Positions 2,114 to 13,978 of a stretch of DNA of 40,372 nucleotides are shown piece by piece; position 1 is the stretch's first letter, and the number at the start of each line of letters is the position of its first letter. The translations under genes were made by a program, and so were the position numbers. A model generated the notes under the pieces. That model did no database searches and was not told where the DNA came from. It saw only the letters and a program-made list of their open reading frames with translations. The stretch lies in contig QMPO01000002.1 of assembly GCA_003648625.1 (NCBI GenBank), positions 1 to 40,372 on the forward strand, given 5' to 3'. Source of the DNA: Bacteroidota bacterium (GTDB taxonomy: Bacteria > Bacteroidota > Bacteroidia > Bacteroidales > F082).

Positions 2114-3334
2114 ATGGCCAGTAATAATAAAGTGGTAATCACCGGAATGAACATTGTTTCGGCACTGGGATTGAGCGCAAAGGAAAACTGGGAAAACATG
2201 GTGCAGGGGAAAAGCGGTGTTCGTCGTATTACCTTATTTGATCCTTCTGATCTGGAAACTCAAATAGCTGCCCAGTTGCCTGCTTCTTTCGATGAATATG
2301 CTTCCGGAAAGGTGAAGAAGCGCCAGGCACACCAGATGACACGCGTTACGCGTATGTGTTATGTGTGCGCCAAAGGTGCTGTGGAGCAGGAGGGGATCGA
2401 TTTTGAATCAATGGATAAAAGCCGGGTAGCCGTAATCCTGGGTGTTGTAAATGCGGGCAATTCAAGTGTGGAAGGAAAAGAGCCAACAAGGAACTCAATT
2501 CTTAAGGGGATGAACAACGCGATGTCGGCCTGGATTTCCATGCAATATGGTTTGACGGGTCCCAGTTATACGGTAGCCACAGCCTGTTCTTCTTCGGCTT
2601 ATGCTATTGCTTTGGGCTACGACCTTATTAAAAGTGGGAAGGCGGATATGGTGATTACAGGAGGAGCTGATTCCACGATCAATCCGGAAGAAATTGCCGG
2701 ATTTAACCTTCTGTACGCCCTTTCAACACAAAACGATGGGCCGGAGAAAGCAAGTAAACCTTTTTCAGAAGATCGTGATGGCTTCGTTATCGGTGAAGGT
2801 GCCGGGATTATGATCCTGGAATCGGAAACCTCAGCCAAAAAAAGGAAGGCAAAAATTTACGGTGAACTTGCAGGTTATGGGTTGACAACAGAAGGATATA
2901 ATATTATGGCACCCAAAAAAGATGGTGAAGGGATGGCCGAAACAATGGAGAAGGCCCTGGCGGATTCAGGTATTGATAAATCGGAAGTTGATTATATAAG
3001 CGCACATGGAACAGGAACTACCCTGAATGATCTGTATGAAACCATGGCTGTCAAAAGAGTGTTTGGCAAAAAGGCATACGATGTTCCCGTTTCTTCCCAG
3101 AAATCCATGATCGGCCATACGGTGGGAGCTGCCGGGGTAATTGAAGGAATTGTTACTGTTATTAGCATTCAAAACAATTTCCTTACACCAACCATCAACC
3201 TTGATCAGCCTGATCCTGATCTGGATCTTGATTATGTCCCTAACACCGGAAGGAAGGAAGAACTGAGGGTGGCTTTGTCTAACTCCTTTGCCTTTGGCGG
3301 GCATAATGCTACGCTGGTTTTCAGGAAATATTAA
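2114..3334 (+). CDS. beta-ketoacyl-ACP synthase (KAS II/FabF-like), complete Cys-His-His
   Basis: 'TVATACSSSAYAIA' (Cys), 'SAHGTGTTLND' (His), 'MIGHTVGAAGVIEG' (His), C-terminal 'NSFAFGGHNATLVF'. Confidence 0.93.
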   Translation: MASNNKVVITGMNIVSALGLSAKENWENMVQGKSGVRRITLFDPSDLETQIAAQLPASFDEYASGKVKKRQAHQMTRVTRMCYVCAKGAVEQEGIDFESMDKSRVAVILGVVNAGNSSVEGKEPTRNSILKGMNNAMSAWISMQYGLTGPSYTVATACSSSAYAIALGYDLIKSGKADMVITGGADSTINPEEIAGFNLLYALSTQNDGPEKASKPFSEDRDGFVIGEGAGIMILESETSAKKRKAKIYGELAGYGLTTEGYNIMAPKKDGEGMAETMEKALADSGIDKSEVDYISAHGTGTTLNDLYETMAVKRVFGKKAYDVPVSSQKSMIGHTVGAAGVIEGIVTVISIQNNFLTPTINLDQPDPDLDLDYVPNTGRKEELRVALSNSFAFGGHNATLVFRKY

Positions 3335-4431
3335 ATCTTTCTTCCTTCAACTACACTGAAAGGCGATACGGTTTTAACTACCCTTGTCAATTTAAAACCG
3401 GCCTCTTTAAATAGTTGTCTGAATTCTTCTTCGGTTCTCTCTTTACCTCTTTCTGTTCCGAGAAGCATCTCCAGGTCGAACATTTTACCGAAATGTGGCT
3501 TGTTATCCGGCCGGATAACAGTCTCAAGGATCAGAATTTTTCCTTCCTCCGGAATGATCTGGCCAATTCTTTTTAGTAACAACACACAGGTTTCATCATC
3601 AAAGATGTGCAAAATGTTTTTTAGAAGATAAGCATCGGCAACAGGGATGTCCATGTCGAAAAAGTTACCCGGAATAATTTCCACCCGGTCTTTTACACCG
3701 TATTCCCCGGCTATTTTCCCTGCAGTAGCTACCACGTGTGAAAGGTCGAATAGAATTCCTTTAAGACCAGGGTTTTTCTCCATCAATTTAAAAAGAAAAG
3801 AGCCTTCGCCTCCGCCGATATCGGCCAGCGTATCAATTCCTTTAAATGAATATGCAGAGACCACGGCATTACTCAATAAGCCAATGGTAGCAGTCATGGC
3901 TTTGTTGTACAATTCATTTTTTTCGGGAGAATTTTCCAGGTGAGAGAAAGCATCCGTTCCAAAAACTTTAAATGCTGAGCTTTTCCCGGTTACAACACTG
4001 CTTTTTAATTCGTTTACCAGTGTCCAGTTCATGTCATTCAGCTGGTGCAGGATCATGTATTTTGGATTGCCCGGAGCTTCGCGAAGGGCATAAGAAAGTT
4101 TGGTATTTTTAAAAAAACCGGATTTTGTTTCTTTAAAAACACATTCTCCGGCCAGTGCACGCATCAACCTGTACAAAGCTTGAGGGGCAGCATTTGCCTT
4201 CCGGGCAATCTCCTGCACGTCCATCTCTTTATCACCGATAATTTCCGCTAGGTTAAGTTCGCAGGCTACACCAAGTGCTTTAGACAGCCAGAATCCCTGT
4301 GATTTTTCAAATACAGCCATACCGGCAGGCGTGAACCGGTAATATAATTTCTTCAAAAAAAACCGGAACCGGTTGATAATGGAAACAAACCAGACCGGCG
4401 GAATTATACTAACTGAAGGTTGCCTGTTCAT
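3331..4431 (-). CDS. SAM-dependent O-methyltransferase-like protein (Methyltransf_2 / CrtF-like, N-terminal dimerisation domain)
   Basis: 'LADIGGGEGSFLFKLMEKNPGLKGILFDLSHVV' SAM-binding motif; winged-helix-like N-terminus 'ALYRLMRALAGECVFKETKSGFFKNTKLSYALR'. Confidence 0.85.
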   Translation of the reverse strand: MNRQPSVSIIPPVWFVSIINRFRFFLKKLYYRFTPAGMAVFEKSQGFWLSKALGVACELNLAEIIGDKEMDVQEIARKANAAPQALYRLMRALAGECVFKETKSGFFKNTKLSYALREAPGNPKYMILHQLNDMNWTLVNELKSSVVTGKSSAFKVFGTDAFSHLENSPEKNELYNKAMTATIGLLSNAVVSAYSFKGIDTLADIGGGEGSFLFKLMEKNPGLKGILFDLSHVVATAGKIAGEYGVKDRVEIIPGNFFDMDIPVADAYLLKNILHIFDDETCVLLLKRIGQIIPEEGKILILETVIRPDNKPHFGKMFDLEMLLGTERGKERTEEEFRQLFKEAGFKLTRVVKTVSPFSVVEGRKI

Positions 4432-4462
4432 ACTTTGCTGATTGAATCCGTAAAGTTATTTT

Positions 4463-5554
4463 TTATTTCGAAACAGAAGTGTCTTCCGGCCGGTCAGAAT
4501 TGCTTACAAGTAATAAACTGTGATTTACATTCCGGTAATGATTGTAAATTAGAATGTTTTTCAATTCGCTCACAGGTTTGCCATTTAGTCGGATGGACTC
4601 CGGAACCACTTGTTTGCGGAGTATATTGGTGGCAAGCCATAAGGCGAAGGCTGAAGATGTATGGTATTCGCCGCAAAGGTGTTTGTAATATGCCTGTTTG
4701 TTCTCTAAGAAGATTGTTTTCGAAAGTTCGTAGTAAACATTATCAAACTTTGGATATCCGTTCAGGCCCAGTAGCACCAAATCTATGTCTTCTGTTGTGA
4801 GGTCTTCCTTTTTTAGAAAACTATTGATCTCCAGTCTGATCATATTAGTGTCGAAAGGATTGGAAAACGTATGTACTGCCCTGATACCAGCATAAGCATG
4901 GGTGCTGCGTTGTTTTTCCAGCAGGAAAAAAGTACTTCCTTCACCGGCAATGGTTCCTTGCGAGTTGTCATTTAAAAGTTGTAAGTTGCTCACGCCCGGT
5001 TTTTTATAATGGCCGATCCGTTCAAAAGTTCTGAATTGTATCTCTTCAATTTCATCCACACCGCCTAATAATACGTTGGCGTATTTCCCTTCTTTCAACA
5101 ACATCATGGCATCCAACAGGGCACTCTCGAAAGAAAAAGCACGATGTGCGTAGGTCATATTATAATTCTGGCAGCCGGTTTGAATGGCAATTTGTGCAGC
5201 AATGGAGCTGTGTGCCGACTGGATAAACGGAGAGGGGGGGACAAATTGTTCTTTGTTTTTATCCACAGACAATAGGAATGTTTCCGTGCTCTTAAAACAG
5301 CCTTTACCCGTGCCCAGGCAAATGGACCCGGGAACGTTGATCCCGGCATCGTCCAGGCATAATTTGGCTCCGGCCCAGCCCAGTTTCAGAATACGGCTTA
5401 CCCGGCGCAAAGCATTCGGGCGAAAAAATAAACCATAGTCCGGTTCAATGCATTGCAGCATATTGGTCTGTTGTTCTTTTATCTCTGCAAGAAGTACATT
5501 TCCGTTTAAAGTTGGCTGGGGTGATATGGCGGCGGTTCCGTTGATGTAAATCAT
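4463..5554 (-). CDS. ketosynthase-like protein lacking catalytic Cys/His (possible chain-length-factor/KS-beta partner)
   Basis: Thiolase-fold motifs ('GICLGTGKGC'-like region, 'YANVLLGGVDEI', 'GTIAGEGSTFFLLE'), but the active-site Cys segment reads 'MTYAHRAFSFESAL' and the HGTG segment reads 'LGLNGYPKFDN'. Overlaps the upstream KS gene by 4 bp. Confidence 0.8.
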   Translation of the reverse strand: MIYINGTAAISPQPTLNGNVLLAEIKEQQTNMLQCIEPDYGLFFRPNALRRVSRILKLGWAGAKLCLDDAGINVPGSICLGTGKGCFKSTETFLLSVDKNKEQFVPPSPFIQSAHSSIAAQIAIQTGCQNYNMTYAHRAFSFESALLDAMMLLKEGKYANVLLGGVDEIEEIQFRTFERIGHYKKPGVSNLQLLNDNSQGTIAGEGSTFFLLEKQRSTHAYAGIRAVHTFSNPFDTNMIRLEINSFLKKEDLTTEDIDLVLLGLNGYPKFDNVYYELSKTIFLENKQAYYKHLCGEYHTSSAFALWLATNILRKQVVPESIRLNGKPVSELKNILIYNHYRNVNHSLLLVSNSDRPEDTSVSK

Positions 5555-6756
5555 GGCTGTACTTTTGAAAAAACGAGTGAAGTATTATTGCCGCCAAACC
5601 CGAATGAGTTGGACAAGACATGATTTATTTTCCTGCCGGTTATCTTTGTGGCCGTAGGTTTTATAGAAACTTCTTCCATGGGTTGCCTGAAGTTAAGATT
5701 TGGAAAAACCAGGTTGTTTTGCAGGGTCAGGATCGAAAAAACAGCCTCCAGGGCACCGGCACTTCCCAGTGTGTGGCCCGTAAAAGGTTTGGTGGAGCTG
5801 AATGGTGGCGGGTTCTTGCCGAAAACCTTCTCCAGTCCCAGTGCTTCCGAAAGGTCGCTGTTCAGGCTGCCTGTTCCGTGGGCGTTAATGTAATCAATAT
5901 CTTCAGGTTTCAGACCACTTTCTTCAAGTGCATTGTTCATGGCCATAGCTGTTCCCTCGCCGTCAGGAGAAAGGGCAGTAAGATGGTAGGCTTCGTTGGA
6001 ATTTCCGTAGCCGCTCAGTTCACAGAGGATTTTTTCTTTCCGTGCTGTTCTTTCCGATTCTATAACCAGAAAAGCAGCTCCTTCGCCAATGTTAAGTCCC
6101 TGCCTGTCCCGGTCGAACGGCTTGCATACCTCCGGATCAACGATCATCAGTGCATGAAAACCGTTCAGCATCACTTTCGATAAGGCATCCGTTCCACCCA
6201 CCAAAACCCTGTCGAGCAGGCCGTGCCTGATCATCCGGGCGCCGGTCATGATGGCATTGGCCGCCGAGGAACAGGCTGTGTTGATGGTGCTCATATACCC
6301 GTGAATGCTAAGCTCACGGGCAATGACTTCTGTGCTGAATCCCCAGTCCTGCGATTCGATGTATTCATTTTTGCTGTCGTTCTCCAGAAAGTCTTTCAGG
6401 TAACGTTCAATGTTTGTCATGGCCTCGGCCGTGGTGCCTGAAATAATGCCTGTCCTGACCTGCGGGTCATTGAAAACGGCATCTTTCATGGCTTCGCGGG
6501 CGGCTATAACACCTAATAAAGCACCCCGGCTGATCCCTTTGGTGTCTTTAACTCCGGCCAGCCCGGCCAGTTCCCTGTAGGTAAACGGAATTTCTCCTGC
6601 CGTCAGTTTTCCGGAAAGCCTGGTTTTCAGGTTCCGGATAGGGCCTATGCCTGTTTCTTTTGCCGTAAGTTTTTTCAGTTGTCCGGCTACACCTGTTCCC
6701 AGTGAGGAAATAATCCCCATGCCGGTAACAAATATTTTGTCGTGCTTCCCGCTCAT
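5551..6756 (-). CDS. beta-ketoacyl-ACP synthase, complete Cys-His-His
   Basis: 'STINTACSSAANAIM', 'INAHGTGSLNSD', 'KPFTGHTLGSAGALE', C-terminal 'NSFGFGGNNTSLVF'. Confidence 0.93.
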   Translation of the reverse strand: MSGKHDKIFVTGMGIISSLGTGVAGQLKKLTAKETGIGPIRNLKTRLSGKLTAGEIPFTYRELAGLAGVKDTKGISRGALLGVIAAREAMKDAVFNDPQVRTGIISGTTAEAMTNIERYLKDFLENDSKNEYIESQDWGFSTEVIARELSIHGYMSTINTACSSAANAIMTGARMIRHGLLDRVLVGGTDALSKVMLNGFHALMIVDPEVCKPFDRDRQGLNIGEGAAFLVIESERTARKEKILCELSGYGNSNEAYHLTALSPDGEGTAMAMNNALEESGLKPEDIDYINAHGTGSLNSDLSEALGLEKVFGKNPPPFSSTKPFTGHTLGSAGALEAVFSILTLQNNLVFPNLNFRQPMEEVSIKPTATKITGRKINHVLSNSFGFGGNNTSLVFSKVQP

Positions 6757-6914
6757 CTTTTAAGCCTGTGTCAAATAAGCCGTAAAAATACCAAATACTG
6801 TGGTTTTCCAAGAGAGTTATATATGAACCTTTAAACATTTATATTTCTATATTGAATAAATATAATGCTATGTGCGCCAACTGCGGGCGGACATGCAGAT
6901 GATGATAAAGATTA

Positions 6915-7002
6915 TACACTTAAACGTCCGAAAAAATGTAAGAAAACACATAAATACGTCCGAAAAAGTGTATATTTGCACATAAATACGTCCGAAAAAG
7001 TG
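6915..7002. repeat. Three direct repeats at exact 32-bp period upstream of AAA/DUF4143 gene
   Basis: CACATAAATACGTCCGAAAAAGTG is perfect at 6947-6970 and 6979-7002; a diverged copy (18/24 matches) lies at 6915-6938. Core ACGTCCGAAAAA starts at 6924, 6956 and 6988. Confidence 0.9.
6971..6978 (+). promoter_or_regulatory. -7 promoter element TATATTTG
   Basis: Matches TAnnTTTG; lies exactly between repeats 2 and 3, 31 bp before the ATG at 7009. Confidence 0.6.
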
Positions 7003-7008
7003 GAAAAT

Positions 7009-8304
7009 ATGAAAAGAAATGCCATTAACTATTTGGAAAAGTGGAAAAAGAGCAAAGACCGTAAACCGCTAATCATCAGAGGTGTGCGCCAGGTCGGAAA
7101 AACCTGGTTGATGAAAGAGTTCGGCCGAATTCATTACCGGAATGTGGCCTATATTAACTTTGAAAGCGCCCTGTCTTTAAAACGTGTTTTTAGTGCTGAT
7201 TTCGATATTCAACGAATCATAACAGCTTTTGAAATAGAAACCGGCGTAAAAATCGAAAAAAACAACACATTGATTATTTTAGATGAAATACAGGAGGCCG
7301 AACGCGGTGTTACGGTGCTTAAATACTTTTACGAAGAAGCACCTCAATATCATGTGATGGCAGCCGGTTCATTGTTGGGTGTTGCCTTACATCAGCAGAC
7401 ATCCTTCCCTGTCGGGAAAGTTGACTTCATGGATTTGCAGCCGATGGGGTTTACCGAATTTCTGGAAGCCATCGGGCAGTCAAAGCTTGCCGGACTGTTA
7501 TACAACAGGGAATGGGATTTGATAAAGGCATTTAAAGAGCGGTTCGTTAATTTGTTAAAACACTATTATTTCACCGGCGGAATGCCCGAAGCAGTTTTGG
7601 AATATAAGGCATCCAATGACTTTAACAGGATCAGAACTATCCAGAAAAGTATTTTAAGGGGTTATGAACAGGATTTTTCAAAACATGCGCCTGTATCCGT
7701 CATTCCTCGAATCAATATGCTTTGGAATTCGGTGCCTGCCCAACTGGCAAAAGAAAATAAAAAGTTTATTTATGGTGCCATACGCAAAGGTACCCGCGCC
7801 AAAGATTTTGAATTGGCGTTAAATTGGCTGTGCAACAGTGGTGTGCTTTATAAAGTACACAGAATAAAGAAACCGGGTATGCCGCTTAAAGCTTATGAAG
7901 ATTTTAACGTTTTCAAGCTTTTTATTTTTGATGTTGGATTGTTGGGTGCCATGAGTGAGTTGAGTGCCAAAACATTAATAGAAGGAAACAGAATCTTTGA
8001 AGAGTTTAAAGGTGCTTTGACCGAACAATATGTTCTTCAGCAATTAAGGTTGAAGTATGCATCGGATATTTATTATTGGTCTGCCGAAAGATCGTCCGGC
8101 GAAATTGATTTTATTGTTCAGGATGAAGAAGATATCATCCCCATTGAAGTAAAGGCGGAAGAAAATTTAAAAGCCAAAAGCCTTAAATCGTTTATTAAAA
8201 AATATCCGCATACCAAACCTGTACGTATTTCCATGTCGGATTACCGGGAAGAAAGCTGGATGGTAAACCTGCCGTTGTATGCGGTGGAATCGGGTTTGCG
8301 GTAA
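7009..8304 (+). CDS. ATP-binding protein, AAA domain + DUF4143
   Basis: 'LIIRGVRQVGKTWLMKEF' Walker A, 'TLIILDEIQE' Walker B, C-terminal 'YYWSAERSSGEIDFIVQDEEDIIPIEVKAEEN' nuclease-like motif. The ORF track start at 6865 is over-extended because promoter and repeats lie inside it. Confidence 0.9.
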   Translation: MKRNAINYLEKWKKSKDRKPLIIRGVRQVGKTWLMKEFGRIHYRNVAYINFESALSLKRVFSADFDIQRIITAFEIETGVKIEKNNTLIILDEIQEAERGVTVLKYFYEEAPQYHVMAAGSLLGVALHQQTSFPVGKVDFMDLQPMGFTEFLEAIGQSKLAGLLYNREWDLIKAFKERFVNLLKHYYFTGGMPEAVLEYKASNDFNRIRTIQKSILRGYEQDFSKHAPVSVIPRINMLWNSVPAQLAKENKKFIYGAIRKGTRAKDFELALNWLCNSGVLYKVHRIKKPGMPLKAYEDFNVFKLFIFDVGLLGAMSELSAKTLIEGNRIFEEFKGALTEQYVLQQLRLKYASDIYYWSAERSSGEIDFIVQDEEDIIPIEVKAEENLKAKSLKSFIKKYPHTKPVRISMSDYREESWMVNLPLYAVESGLR

Positions 8305-8340
8305 TAATATAAACCCCTCGTCTCCATCGCTCCGTCTCCC

Positions 8341-9678
8341 TCAAATCACATCCGTTCCTTTCTTGATCAGCCATAGCCTGCCCATGTTCTCGTAAAACTG
8401 TTCCGTAGGCAGCTTCGTCTTCATCACACTGTTGAAGAAATTATATTTGAGGTAATCGTGATCAATGATGCGGTCTTTCACCTGCTCGTAATAGACGGTG
8501 CCGGGCATTGGCGTCAGAATGGTATAACCGGCATAGGTTACCTTGTGCGAATTGGCATATTCCGCCAGCGCTTTAAAATCATCTTCATCATAATCAGGAG
8601 GGACCACATAGTTCCCTCGTAACAATATGTCGTTGGCATGGAAAACGTCAATGGCTTTTTTGATGGTGGCCGCTTCCGATTTTTTATTGTAAAATTTAAG
8701 TTCTTCATCGCGGAACGACTCGAAACCGGTGATCACCACTTTCAGGCCTCCTTTGGCCAGTTTTTCAATCAACTGGGGATGACTGGCAGCCGTGTCGGCC
8801 CTGATGTCCATAATATATTCTTTCTGAATGCCTTCTTCTGCAATTCGGTCGAAAAGCCTGTCAATAAATTTAATATTGACAATGGTGTTGGCATCAGCAA
8901 AACGAACGATTTTGTAATCAATCAGTTTCAATTCCTCAATGACACTTTCCACTTGTCTTTGAAAATAGCCGCCCTTGTGTTCCTTCCAGATAGAGCAGAA
9001 CGTGCAGCTATACGGACATCCCAGTGAAGTGAACAGGTAGGTGACTGGTTCCGGCCTGCCACCCACAACATAGGTAGAGCGCCACCGTTCCAGATGGTTG
9101 CGGTCGGGCATCAGAAAGTGTTTGTCGGCGGCATCAAAATACAAAGGAGGCGGCCCCGTTGGTACAAGTTTTCCGTTTTCTCTGACAAAAATTCCTTTGA
9201 CCTTTTTAACCGGTTTTTTTGCTTCCAGGGCTTCAACAACTTCCCTGAAGGTAAAAGATGCCTGTCCCGGACAAATAACATCCACATCGGGGTCATCAAA
9301 TTCGTACGGTAGCAGAGTGGTATGCACACCTCCGACAACGGTTACGATGTTTGGGTTGAATTTTTTAGCAGCACGCAGAATTTCCAGTGCATAATACATC
9401 TCGGAAGTAATGGCCGTTGTGCCAACAATATCAGGGTTGGTCTTTTCCAGCACTTCCTGTATCATCTGGTTGAGTGGAGGGGCATCGGGAATCAAATCGT
9501 ATTCACCTTTTGTATCAAAAACTTCCACGTCAAAATCTTTTACGGCTTCGGCAATAGTGAGTAATCCAAGGGGAGGCCCGATGAGTTTTTTATGAATAAA
9601 ATACCGGGCTTCTGCAGGGGCAGAGGCAAGAATCATATTTTCAGGCGACCGTGGCGGGTTGATTAATAGTATTTTCAT
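8341..9678 (-). CDS. B12-binding domain-containing radical SAM protein
   Basis: N-terminal Rossmann B12-binding-like domain ('MKILLINPPRSPENM...VVGGVHTTLLPYEF'); radical SAM motif CPYSCTFC (CX3CX2C). Start at MKILLINPP preferred. Confidence 0.92.
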   Translation of the reverse strand: MKILLINPPRSPENMILASAPAEARYFIHKKLIGPPLGLLTIAEAVKDFDVEVFDTKGEYDLIPDAPPLNQMIQEVLEKTNPDIVGTTAITSEMYYALEILRAAKKFNPNIVTVVGGVHTTLLPYEFDDPDVDVICPGQASFTFREVVEALEAKKPVKKVKGIFVRENGKLVPTGPPPLYFDAADKHFLMPDRNHLERWRSTYVVGGRPEPVTYLFTSLGCPYSCTFCSIWKEHKGGYFQRQVESVIEELKLIDYKIVRFADANTIVNIKFIDRLFDRIAEEGIQKEYIMDIRADTAASHPQLIEKLAKGGLKVVITGFESFRDEELKFYNKKSEAATIKKAIDVFHANDILLRGNYVVPPDYDEDDFKALAEYANSHKVTYAGYTILTPMPGTVYYEQVKDRIIDHDYLKYNFFNSVMKTKLPTEQFYENMGRLWLIKKGTDVI

Positions 9679-9750
9679 GATTGTGGTGAGCAAAGATGAG
9701 GAAAATTATTATTCGTATAAAGATCAAACATTTCATTAGTCAATTTTTAA

Positions 9751-9758
9751 TATTTTTG
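9751..9758 (+). promoter_or_regulatory. -7 promoter element TATTTTTG
   Basis: TAnnTTTG match, 22 bp before the ATG at 9780, at the head of the rightward operon. Confidence 0.5.
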
Positions 9759-9779
9759 GGCACAATAATTTATACGGTC

Positions 9780-10253
9780 ATGAAAGAAAAAGAAGCGCAG
9801 ATAAATCACGATGTGCATCCGTTGGTTTTGTATGTTGAAAAGGAAGACGGGACATATGGCCGCCTTGAAACGGCATCTTTTCTTTCGAAGAATTACCTGG
9901 ATGATTATTTTGATAAGGTGAGAAAATGGGATGCCGAGCTGAAAGAAAAGCTGGACAAAGGAGAGATCAGCCCGGTGTATTATTATATGATCATGCTGGA
10001 AATGGGTGAAGGCGACCTGGCTTCGCGGGTGGGTATTTCAAAATGGAAGCTCAGAAGGCATCTGAAAATGAAGGCTTTTGAGAAGATGAACCTCAGAATG
10101 CTGAGACGGTATGCCGACGTGTTTGATATACCTGTGAGTAACCTTTTGCATTTTACGGTTATTAAAGAGAAAGATCAGCATAAATTGAAGATCACTTATC
10201 AAAAAGCAACAAGTAATCCGTATATTTCCGTATCAAAAATTGAAACAGTGTAA
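9780..10253 (+). CDS. helix-turn-helix (XRE-like) domain protein
   Basis: 'GEGDLASRVGISKWKLRRHLKMKAFEKMNLRMLRRYADVFDIPVSNLL' resembles an HTH_3 domain. Start placed at MKEKEAQ, downstream of the promoter. Confidence 0.65.
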   Translation: MKEKEAQINHDVHPLVLYVEKEDGTYGRLETASFLSKNYLDDYFDKVRKWDAELKEKLDKGEISPVYYYMIMLEMGEGDLASRVGISKWKLRRHLKMKAFEKMNLRMLRRYADVFDIPVSNLLHFTVIKEKDQHKLKITYQKATSNPYISVSKIETV

Positions 10254-10281
10254 CTAAACAAGGCTATAGCAGACAGAAAGT

Positions 10282-11286
10282 ATGAAGGAAATTGATTTTG
10301 AGCATAAAATGGCGGCCCACTGCGAGTCGGGAACGGTAACGGCCTTGTTAAATCACGGAGGGCTGGAAATTACCGAGCCGATGATTTTTGGGATAGCAAG
10401 CGGAATATTTTTTGGTTATTTTGAATCGTCCGTTTTTTCTTTTCCAATGTTCATCGTAAGGAATAAACCAGGGTCGATTCGCAAAAATATTATCAAGCGG
10501 CTGGGCGTAAATTTCTATACCAGGAGTTTCAGGAGCCAGGAAAAAGGTATTGAAGAACTGGATAGCTTACTAGCCGAAGGTCGCCCCGTTGCTACGCAGG
10601 TTGATTTTTACTACATGGAGTATATGCCTGAGTATCTGCGAACACACATGAACGTGCATTTTATCAATGTTATTGGTAAGAATGAAAAAAGTTACCTGAT
10701 CAGCGATAGCTATTATAAAGAAAAAGCAGAGTTAAGGACAGAACTATTGCATAAAGCGCGGTTTGTTGGAGGAAACATGGCGCCAAAGGGTTTTTTGTTT
10801 TATCCTGTTTCCATACCTGAAAATATTGATTTCGAAAAAGCCATAAGGAAGGGAATAAAAAAAGCAGCACATGATATGATCAAACTACCCGTACCTTTTG
10901 TTGGCGTGAAAGGCATAAGGAAATTCGCCAAAAAGGTAACCGGCTGGCCCGACCTGGCTCGGGATATAGATCACCTCTCGCACGAGATAATGAAAATCAA
11001 TGTGTTCCTAGAAGACCAGGGAACGGGTGGTGCCGGATTCAGGTTTTTATATGCTACGTTTTTACAGCAGGCAGCACAAAAGATCAACGATGCACAACTC
11101 GAAGGAATGTCGAAAAGGATGATGGCAATCGGCGACGACTGGCGAAATATTTCTTATTTTGCAGCCAGAATTGGTAAAAACAGGGATTTGGGAGAGAGTC
11201 GGTTGGATGAATTGAGCCAGATGATTTACATGATGGCCGATAAAGAGCAGGAATTTTTTACCGAACTCTACAAAATGGTAAAGTAG
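10282..11286 (+). CDS. BtrH N-terminal domain-like protein (putative ACP-dependent acyltransferase, BtrH_N/DUF4872 type)
   Basis: 'HKMAAHCESGTVTALLNHGG' (Cys), 'NVHFINVIGKNEKSYLISDSY' (His, Asp), overall BtrH-like layout; directly upstream of an ACP gene. Confidence 0.75.
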   Translation: MKEIDFEHKMAAHCESGTVTALLNHGGLEITEPMIFGIASGIFFGYFESSVFSFPMFIVRNKPGSIRKNIIKRLGVNFYTRSFRSQEKGIEELDSLLAEGRPVATQVDFYYMEYMPEYLRTHMNVHFINVIGKNEKSYLISDSYYKEKAELRTELLHKARFVGGNMAPKGFLFYPVSIPENIDFEKAIRKGIKKAAHDMIKLPVPFVGVKGIRKFAKKVTGWPDLARDIDHLSHEIMKINVFLEDQGTGGAGFRFLYATFLQQAAQKINDAQLEGMSKRMMAIGDDWRNISYFAARIGKNRDLGESRLDELSQMIYMMADKEQEFFTELYKMVK

Positions 11287-11287
11287 T

Positions 11288-11584
11288 ATGACGAAGCAAA
11301 ATATGGTAACTGAGGCGGATTTGCAGAGAATCAAAAGAGAAGTTAAGGAAGTCATTATTGACGCCCTCAATATAAAAAAGATCAACCCGGATGAGATAGA
11401 CGACAGCGCCCCGCTGTTTGCCCCGGGCAATGCTTTTGGCCTTGATTCGGTGGATGCCATTGATATCATTATGCGGATACAAGGTCACTTTAATGTCCGT
11501 ATAGGCGACCAGAACCTTGCCCGCGACGTGCTCGAGTCAGTTGATACACTCGCAGCTTTCATCGTCAAAGAAAAAAGTTCGTAA
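11288..11584 (+). CDS. acyl carrier protein (phosphopantetheine-binding)
   Basis: 'FGLDSVDAIDIIMRIQGHFNVRI' with the DSx phosphopantetheine Ser. The true start may be an internal Met. Confidence 0.9.
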   Translation: MTKQNMVTEADLQRIKREVKEVIIDALNIKKINPDEIDDSAPLFAPGNAFGLDSVDAIDIIMRIQGHFNVRIGDQNLARDVLESVDTLAAFIVKEKSS

Positions 11585-11602
11585 TAAGTTCTAAGTAAAG
11601 GC

Positions 11603-12685
11603 TTGATGAAGCAATCTTATCTGTTGGCGGGCATATCATCAGGAAATCTTATGCGGCTTTTAACCCGGAATGGTTTTTCGCTTCACCCGAAATATTTAGC
11701 AAGAGTACTTTTTTTGTTGCAGGGATCGCTGTTCGCTTCTTTTTTAAAGCGGATGGAAAAAAGTAAAATGGGATCAAAACTCAGGGATTACACCATGACG
11801 GAAGATCCCGTTTTTATCATCGGTCATTGGCGGACAGGAAGTACTTTTCTGCATCAGCTGATGTCGCTGGACAATAAGCTGGTAACGCCGAACGTATTTC
11901 AGGTTTCGGCTGTTGATAGTTTCCTGGTATCCGAAAAATACTATAAACCGGTAATGACGAAACTGATGCAGCCTACCCGGCCGATGGACAACGTAAAACT
12001 CGGTTTTTATGAACCCCAGGAGGATGAATACGCACTGATTAAACTGATAACGGACTCACCACTCGAAAAAATGCTGTTTCCGAAAGACGATAATTATTTC
12101 TTAAGGAATTATAGTGACTATTACCCTGAAAATATTGAAAAATGGAAAAAATTGTTTTACAGTTTCTGCCACCGGCTGAGTTTTATCGGGGGGAAAAGAG
12201 TCCTGTTGAAAAACCCATTCCATTCCATGCGGTTGCCCTTGCTGTTTGAGATGTTCCCGAATGCCAGATTTATTCATATTCACCGGCATCCTTATGATGT
12301 AGTGCCCTCCACCATCCATATGTGGCATGTTGTAGGCAACGAAAACAAGCTGAAAAACAGGTCGTCGAAATTTGGTGTAGAGGAGGTGTCGAAAATGATG
12401 AGCAAACTGTTGGATTATGTCCGAAAGCATCTGAAAGATATTCCTGAGCATGCCAAAATTGAAGTTAGTTTCGATGAACTGGAAAGTAATCCGGAAGCAA
12501 CAATAAAGAAAATTTATCAAAAGCTGGACATGGTACCGGCTCCTGATTTTGGGCAAAAACTGAAAGATAAGCTGGCCGAAACAAAATCATACCAAAAAAA
12601 CAGATACACGTTGAAGCAGGACGACAAAGAAATCATTAAAAAAACGCTTGGGAAACATTTTATTTACTATAATTACCAGGCTTAA
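11603..12685 (+). CDS. PAPS-dependent sulfotransferase family protein
   Basis: 5'-PSB-like 'FIIGHWRTGSTFLHQLMSLD' and 3'-PB-like 'RFIHIHRHPYDVVPSTIHMW'. Confidence 0.88.
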   Translation: MMKQSYLLAGISSGNLMRLLTRNGFSLHPKYLARVLFLLQGSLFASFLKRMEKSKMGSKLRDYTMTEDPVFIIGHWRTGSTFLHQLMSLDNKLVTPNVFQVSAVDSFLVSEKYYKPVMTKLMQPTRPMDNVKLGFYEPQEDEYALIKLITDSPLEKMLFPKDDNYFLRNYSDYYPENIEKWKKLFYSFCHRLSFIGGKRVLLKNPFHSMRLPLLFEMFPNARFIHIHRHPYDVVPSTIHMWHVVGNENKLKNRSSKFGVEEVSKMMSKLLDYVRKHLKDIPEHAKIEVSFDELESNPEATIKKIYQKLDMVPAPDFGQKLKDKLAETKSYQKNRYTLKQDDKEIIKKTLGKHFIYYNYQA

Positions 12686-12712
12686 CCAAGATAAAAGAAA
12701 GAAGGAGGAGAA

Positions 12713-13978
12713 TTGAAGATAAAACTAATATATCCGAGGTGGAAAAAACTAGACGGCCAAACAGAATTTAATCTGCCACCCCACGGCCCTGTTGTTTTTG
12801 CCGCAGCGCTACCCGATTATGTGGAAGTAGATTTTGTGGATGAGAACATGCAATCGTTTAGCTACGACGATCCGGTGGACCTTGTCTGTATCTCGATGAT
12901 GTTGACTTCACAGGTGAAGCGCGGCTGGGAAATTGCTGATACGTATCGTTCCCGGGGTATCAAAGTTTTATTTGGAGGCATCTCAACTATGCTCCATGCC
13001 GAAGAAACTATGCTCCATGCCGACAGTGTGTTTATGGGCGAAGCCGAGGGGCATATGGAAGAAGTGCTGGACGATTTTGCCCGGGGCGGGATGAAAAAGC
13101 TGTATAATTTTATGAATCAGCAACCTGACACAGAACTAATTGGTCCGGCAAGGCGCGATCTTTATAATCGGGATCTTTATTACCACAAAGGAGTGCAGAT
13201 GGTGGATCTTTTTCACGCTTCGAGGGGATGTAAGTTCAACTGTTACCCGTGTGCTGTTTCGTTCCTCGGAGGACGACGGTTCAGAGCTCGTCCGTTCGAC
13301 CGGATTGCTGAAGAACTGGATACCATCGACAACAACAGGCTGTTCGTGGTGGATAATACGCTGGCACAGGATAAAGAATGGACGAAGGAGCTATTTCGGA
13401 CGATGATACCTTTTAAGAAAAACTGGTGCAGCCATACCATCAGCGATGATCCGGATGTGCTTGACCTGGCAGCACAGGCAGGTTCGTGGTATGTGTACCA
13501 GGCTGTGTTTGATACGTCTGATTACATTAAAGAACGAGTCAAGCGTTACCACGATTATGGTATCAGCGTTGAAGGAACAATTTTACTTGGGATGGATAAT
13601 CAGACGGAAGATGACATTATGCGTTTGCTTGACTTTTTGGGAGAGATCAACCTTGACCTGGCCGAATTTACCATACTGACACCATTCCCCGAAACCAAAG
13701 CGTATGACGATATGTTGAAAGAAGGCCGGATTTTTGACCATGACTGGAACCACTATACGGCTGACCGTGCAGTGTACAAACCACGTCATATGTCACCCGA
13801 ACGTTTGCAGGAACTGTATGAATATGCCTGGGAGAGTTTCTATGATACTGAGACGCAGGAACAGAAAATGTTCCGGCTGATGATGAAAGTAGTGGAACGG
13901 GAAATAGCCGCAGGTACCTATCGAAAACCACGTGTTGACCTGATGGAATCCAGTTTCGGAAGGGTTGTTGACAGATAG
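12713..13978 (+). CDS. B12-binding domain-containing radical SAM protein (second, distinct)
   Basis: CKFNCYPC (CX3CX2C); N-terminal B12-binding-like domain with 'VLFGGIS...ADSVFMGEAEG'. TTG start preceded by GAAGGAGGAG. Confidence 0.9.
   Translation: MKIKLIYPRWKKLDGQTEFNLPPHGPVVFAAALPDYVEVDFVDENMQSFSYDDPVDLVCISMMLTSQVKRGWEIADTYRSRGIKVLFGGISTMLHAEETMLHADSVFMGEAEGHMEEVLDDFARGGMKKLYNFMNQQPDTELIGPARRDLYNRDLYYHKGVQMVDLFHASRGCKFNCYPCAVSFLGGRRFRARPFDRIAEELDTIDNNRLFVVDNTLAQDKEWTKELFRTMIPFKKNWCSHTISDDPDVLDLAAQAGSWYVYQAVFDTSDYIKERVKRYHDYGISVEGTILLGMDNQTEDDIMRLLDFLGEINLDLAEFTILTPFPETKAYDDMLKEGRIFDHDWNHYTADRAVYKPRHMSPERLQELYEYAWESFYDTETQEQKMFRLMMKVVEREIAAGTYRKPRVDLMESSFGRVVDR

Follow-up and report, generated by a model that had tools for sequence, protein, structure and literature searches.

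Three tandem copies of a short sequence, set 32 bp apart over the promoter of a PDC-S01 gene, probably constitute a private autoregulatory operator array of that gene. The array was found in a window of 40,372 nucleotides (the whole stretch of DNA that was analyzed), and its counterparts in homologous loci keep the spacing and the position relative to the promoter, with recognition sequences that differ from locus to locus. The preliminary description had proposed an operator array for a repressor, perhaps the gene product itself. The comparative data favor this proposal, given that the spacing is kept, the register to the promoter is fixed and the array is exclusive to this one gene in its genome. 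The identity of the regulator and its action as a repressor are only inferred, as is cooperativity, since no binding or expression data are available.

The near-constant spacing, together with the fact that each relative has its own recognition sequence, suggests silencing of the promoter by the gene's own protein. In the proposed mechanism, the PDC-S01 protein would bind sites of ~20 bp, each combining a constant, A-rich half that contains RTGT with a core particular to the locus. With 32 to 33 bp, or about three helical turns, from one site to the next, several of the protomers or dimers would sit on the same face of the DNA in contact with each other, and their occupancy may be cooperative and possibly nucleotide dependent. 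Given that the sites overlap the core promoter, their occupation would silence the gene. Expression would then be released once the sites are vacated, for example by diversion of the protein to invading or damaged DNA; such an inducing event is inferred, as is any role in defense.

PDC-S01 is a candidate phage defense family of PADLOC composed of COG1373-type ATPases; it is uncharacterized, and its antiphage role is only suspected. The family is described as joining an ATPase and a PD-(D/E)XK-type domain in one protein and is ranked as the fourth most common defense across all prokaryotes (PMC12988326). No mention of regulation or repeats of PDC-S01 was found in the literature searched, and nothing was found there on the regulation of DUF4143, AAA_14, or COG1373 proteins; preprints and most subscription journals were not covered. 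The new element is the operator array, the family itself having already been named by PADLOC. This is a defense family reported to be very common, yet one for which nothing on control or ligand was found in the literature searched.

The array and its position

The two perfect copies of the repeat at an offset of 32 bp, the diverged third copy 32 bp upstream, and the −7 box exactly between copies 2 and 3, all put forward in the preliminary description, were recovered at the coordinates listed in Table 1. The array lies directly upstream of the AAA_14/DUF4143 gene. By direct comparison, copy 1 is identical to CACATAAATACGTCCGAAAAAGTG at 18 of 24 positions. In the 200 bp upstream of the gene, the best identity between 24-mers at lags of 20 to 60 was 24/24, at lag 32, compared with a maximum of 20/24 and a mean of 15.0 in 1,000 dinucleotide shuffles of the same region. 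The array is also the sole place in the 40-kb window with a repeat of at least 19/20 at any lag from 20 to 60. The unit that recurs in relatives is 20 bp long (positions 6952 to 6971, AAATACGTCCGAAAAAGTGT), accompanied by its neighbors at 32 bp.

Table 1 Positions, in the window, of the array, the adjacent gene, and the insertion that contains them
Feature	Position	Strand	Basis or remark
Insertion (array and gene) missing from relatives	approximately 6820..8338		Flanking genes 7 to 196 bp apart in four relatives
Operator copy 1 (diverged), TACACTTAAACGTCCGAAAAAATG	6915..6938	+	Exact 32-bp offset from copy 2
Operator copy 2, CACATAAATACGTCCGAAAAAGTG	6947..6970	+	3' end touches the −7 box; register is the commonest among homologous loci
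−7 promoter box of Bacteroidota (TAnnTTTG), TATATTTG	6971..6978	+	Sequence; register common to homologues
Operator copy 3, same sequence as copy 2	6979..7002	+	Over the likely transcription start (start inferred from the −7 box)
PDC-S01 gene (431 aa, counting Met), encoding an AAA_14 ATPase, a winged helix (predicted), and DUF4143, whose C terminus is PD-(D/E)XK-like	7009..8304	+	Pfam, PADLOC, AlphaFold2, alignment

The repeat had been regarded as noncoding, and this holds because the start codon is ATG 7009, where the homologues begin, downstream of the array. An in-frame ATG at 6865 opens a reading frame through the array (positions 6865 to 7008); automatic annotation would accept this frame and predict a protein of 479 aa whose N terminus is spurious.

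The PDC-S01 gene and its protein

Pfam assigns AAA_14 and DUF4143 domains to the gene product, and the PADLOC profile PDLC04786 of PDC-S01 matches it over residues 1 to 426 (606 bits, E = 6.7e-183). An alignment of 81 homologues revealed the Walker A and B motifs (GARQVGKT and DE, respectively) and four invariant residues, E364, D366, E379, and K381. The pattern E364/D366...E379/K381 is typical of PD-(D/E)XK enzymes; placement in that family is putative, resting on the motif and on two weak profile matches, to Cas4 and YraN, over residues 334 to 392. The AlphaFold2 model of the protein is confident (pLDDT of 87), and its best fold matches are DNA-bound Cdc6/Orc1 initiators, together with STAND NTPases that include Avs3 (8dgc) and Sr35 (7xx2). 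Residues ~226 to 305 are predicted to form a winged helix, as inferred from the order of helices and strands. Searches of PDB sequences with the single sequence and with a profile retrieved no credible relative.

Two criteria, a full-length match to PDC-S01 and the fusion of a Walker A/B ATPase with a PD-(D/E)XK-type domain, were fulfilled by this protein. A third, a neighborhood of defense genes, was not, the neighbors in the window being beta-ketoacyl synthase, O-methyltransferase, and radical SAM genes; such a neighborhood is how the family was found and is not required of each member. As a separate observation, some genomes of one genus (G099, G103, G104, G109, and G119) hold about 90 to 100 first-look PDC-S01 candidates each, an extreme multiplication.

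The spacing is conserved across homologous loci

In the 180 bp upstream of the best 80 homologues, taken from a public genome collection (Bacteroidota, Clostridia, and one MAG labeled Spirochaetales), repeats were observed at lags of 32 and 33 bp, at 64 to 66 bp, which corresponds to two periods, and at almost no other lag. This signal was absent for the same homologues in matched 180-bp stretches located downstream, within the gene, or 520 to 700 bp upstream. When 167 homologous loci were considered, many of them paralogues, upstream repeats of at least 17/20 occurred at lag 32/33 in 92 loci, against 4 for all other lags from 20 to 60 and 0 to 1 in shuffled sequences. The spacing was 33 bp in 56 and 32 bp in 40 of the 97 clear arrays, which contain two to six copies within 220 bp, mostly three.

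Depending on the threshold, about a third to 45% of the loci have no clear direct repeat at 32/33 bp. Some of them have inverted sites instead and were missed because the scan sees direct repeats only: in the Dyadobacter loci L030, L032, and L034 and in one orthologue group (L301 to L305), the two sites form a large inverted repeat. A spacing of 41 to 42 bp, close to four turns, was observed at a few loci, among them L192 and L195, which are members of profile PDLC04787. Internal stops that had been reported for one orthologue group were rejected, given that the in-frame stops were not internal in five members checked.

The same period was found at loci of the more distant PDC-S01 profiles PDLC04787 and PDLC04792 and in plasmid copies from Glaesserella, Fusobacterium, Collinsella, Acinetobacter, and Vibrio (Pseudomonadota, Fusobacteriota, and Actinomycetota). 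The sites at these loci are often unrelated in sequence and palindromic, e.g., TTTTATGCGCATAAAA in Acinetobacter. On a plasmid of Glaesserella parasuis (L252), the PDC-S01 gene with its array adjoins a type III restriction-modification system and metal-response genes. The array of Criblamydia is weaker, and no clear array was seen upstream of the Bacteroides (L258) and Ruminococcus (L259) copies; archaeal members of PDC-S01 were not part of the sample. Viral contigs provided only four relatives. A distant member on a viral contig (L263, 49% identity) has four TTTTCCGTCCGAAAAGTGT-like sites upstream of 1198, and its core nearly equals that of the window, so the two may possibly share a specificity.

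A search upstream of other DUF4143 genes for ACGTCCGAAAAAGTG and its spacing had been suggested as a check of the proposal. The expectation on spacing was fulfilled, whereas that on sequence was not: for most homologues, a literal search for ACGTCCGAAAAAGTG would have come up empty, since it is the geometry that is kept and the sequence that diversifies. The array satisfies the criterion of helically spaced repeats over the core promoter that are conserved with the gene.

Site anatomy and promoter register

In the main subfamily, the site of ~20 bp consists of the constant A-rich half AAAA(A)RTGT together with a core, about five to seven bases long, which varies between loci and carries little information across them. 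Neighboring copies within an array agree at 0.84 to 1.0 over the ~20-bp unit (0.71 at the A/G position), and the agreement drops at once to about 0.4 to 0.6 in the spacer; the unit window was selected on identity and the spacer was not. A recent duplication would have kept the spacer too. Since the spacer is not kept, it is selection that maintains the sites and the distance between them.

The position of the sites relative to the promoter is also fixed. In Bacteroidota, 38 cases have the R of RTG exactly 3 nt upstream of TAnnTTTG, and 38 more have it 35 to 36 nt upstream, where it belongs to the previous copy; no other distance accounts for more than 8 cases. In Clostridia, the −35 hexamer TTGnnn lies inside the site (TTGTAA, TTGCAT, or TTGAAT), typically 17 bp from the −10 box TATAAT. 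The presence of the same type of site on two types of promoter argues for repression, and recognition as DNA is favored because the sites of Clostridia lie upstream of the transcript.

This register also bears on a different function, in which the array would be a landing pad: the ATPase-nuclease would be parked or sequestered at its own locus as an inactive (or sensing) assembly, and transcriptional control would be secondary. Up to six sites within 220 bp are more than simple occlusion needs, and the four invariant residues of the nuclease-like domain are compatible with an effector held in this manner. A pure landing pad, however, does not need a promoter-proximal site in fixed register to the −7 or −35 box, such as that observed in two phyla, and we regard this explanation as unlikely.

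Specificity of the array for its own gene

The similarity between cores rises with the identity between the proteins (Mantel r of 0.24, 0/2000 permutations). Proteins from different genomes that are >85% identical share ~95% of the core, and paralogues from the same genome with <55% identity have a core likeness of 0.44 to 0.50, which is no more than that of distant proteins of other genomes. At >85% protein identity the spacers are also ~85% alike, and judging from these sequences the correlation in this range is partly plain shared ancestry; at 75 to 85% identity there is a modest excess of the core (0.71) over the spacer (0.63). Residue-level mutual information between core and protein columns and domain-wise partial correlations did not locate a specificity domain and did not single out the winged helix. 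For these analyses the sample was small after redundancy correction, and the alignment of the sites was uncertain.

In the host genome, a pattern search, on which the regulon check relied exclusively, found that the motif forms an array at this locus only. If at most one mismatch is allowed, the motif has a single further occurrence, an isolated site within a long open frame. With at most two mismatches, it recurs ten times, always as an isolated site without a second phased copy, and in frames of at least 165 aa. None of the seven further DUF4143 matches in this genome has the window motif, and three of them have weak lag-32/33 repeats of their own. The recognition sequence is specific to the gene and not to the genome, as was the criterion for a private array.

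These observations are relevant to the explanation that the sites belong to another host transcription factor controlling the gene. It is common for operators to serve unlinked regulators, binding of the array by the PDC-S01 protein has not been demonstrated, and the covariation gave no clear reader domain. Nevertheless, a single regulator would mean one site sequence per genome, whereas the sites of the array are unique to the locus and differ between paralogues of the same genome, and the geometry accompanies the gene across phyla and onto plasmids. Control by another host regulator is accordingly difficult to sustain, and we give it little credence.

Relation to known systems

In restriction-modification systems with controller (C) proteins and in toxin-antitoxin autorepressors, which are small HTH or RHH proteins, the gene product recognizes operators, repeated or palindromic, in the promoter of its own gene. 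PDC-S01 is similar in being a small defense-like locus with predicted own-product operators and specificities that differ between loci. It is, however, different in that the protein predicted to regulate is itself the ATPase-nuclease effector and in that its two to six sites repeat in phase every three helical turns. In fold, the region comprising the ATPase and the winged helix also resembles STAND NTPases (Avs3 and NLRs), in which the winged helix generally serves for autoinhibition and not for reading DNA; unlike these proteins, PDC-S01 has no sensor repeats.

Archaeal Cdc6/Orc1 and its origin recognition boxes likewise combine an AAA ATPase and a winged helix with repeated sites, binding being inferred in the case of PDC-S01, and DNA-bound Cdc6/Orc1 structures are the top fold matches. 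In contrast to Cdc6/Orc1, the sites of PDC-S01 overlap the promoter, many paralogues are found per genome, a nuclease-like domain follows, and there is no sign of origin function. An iteron-type origin, a partition site, or a mobile-element end for an Orc/Cdc6-like ATPase would be consistent with this fold, with the tandem phased sites, and with insertion of the unit as a block (see below). It appears highly improbable nonetheless, given that the loci are mostly chromosomal, with multiple paralogues in a genome, that matches in viral contigs and plasmids are few, and that neither repeats downstream of the gene nor flanking duplications were seen. Neutral tandem duplication of promoter DNA, to which the identity of copies 2 and 3 could point, is hardly credible and is refuted at the family level, since the sites are conserved and the spacers between copies are not, and the same spacing recurs with unrelated sequences.

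With the array taken as autoregulatory operators, a broader conjecture can be advanced, which is tentative and more doubtful than the operator assignment. PDC-S01 could be a self-recognizing system in which the AAA-nuclease rests assembled on its private array, with near-invariant 32- to 33-bp spacing and a diversified core, so that the gene is silenced and the effector held until titration by invading DNA arms it; the diversified cores would let dozens of copies coexist without cross talk. For about a hundred examined members of the family, the arrays predict a DNA ligand and a regulatory circuit and come with a built-in panel of specificities, making binding, cooperativity, and induction testable at once. 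The constant spacing across phyla, combined with the drifting recognition sequence, offers a natural data set for learning the protein-DNA code.

Insertion of the array and gene

In the window, the array and gene, on the opposite strand, separate a ketoacyl-synthase gene from a radical-SAM gene. These flanking genes are adjacent in four relatives, three genomes of the same genus and one of the same family, with gaps of 7, 15, 24, and 196 bp. From this comparison, the array and gene are read as a single insertion into an operon that is intact in the relatives; having entered the operon together, the array therefore travels with the gene. No flanking repeat or target duplication was seen at the insertion, the exact ends of which were not resolved. 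The biosynthetic cluster that the insertion splits (positions 2114 to 13978 of the window) encodes beta-ketoacyl synthases, an O-methyltransferase, a B12-binding radical SAM protein, and a BtrH-like protein.
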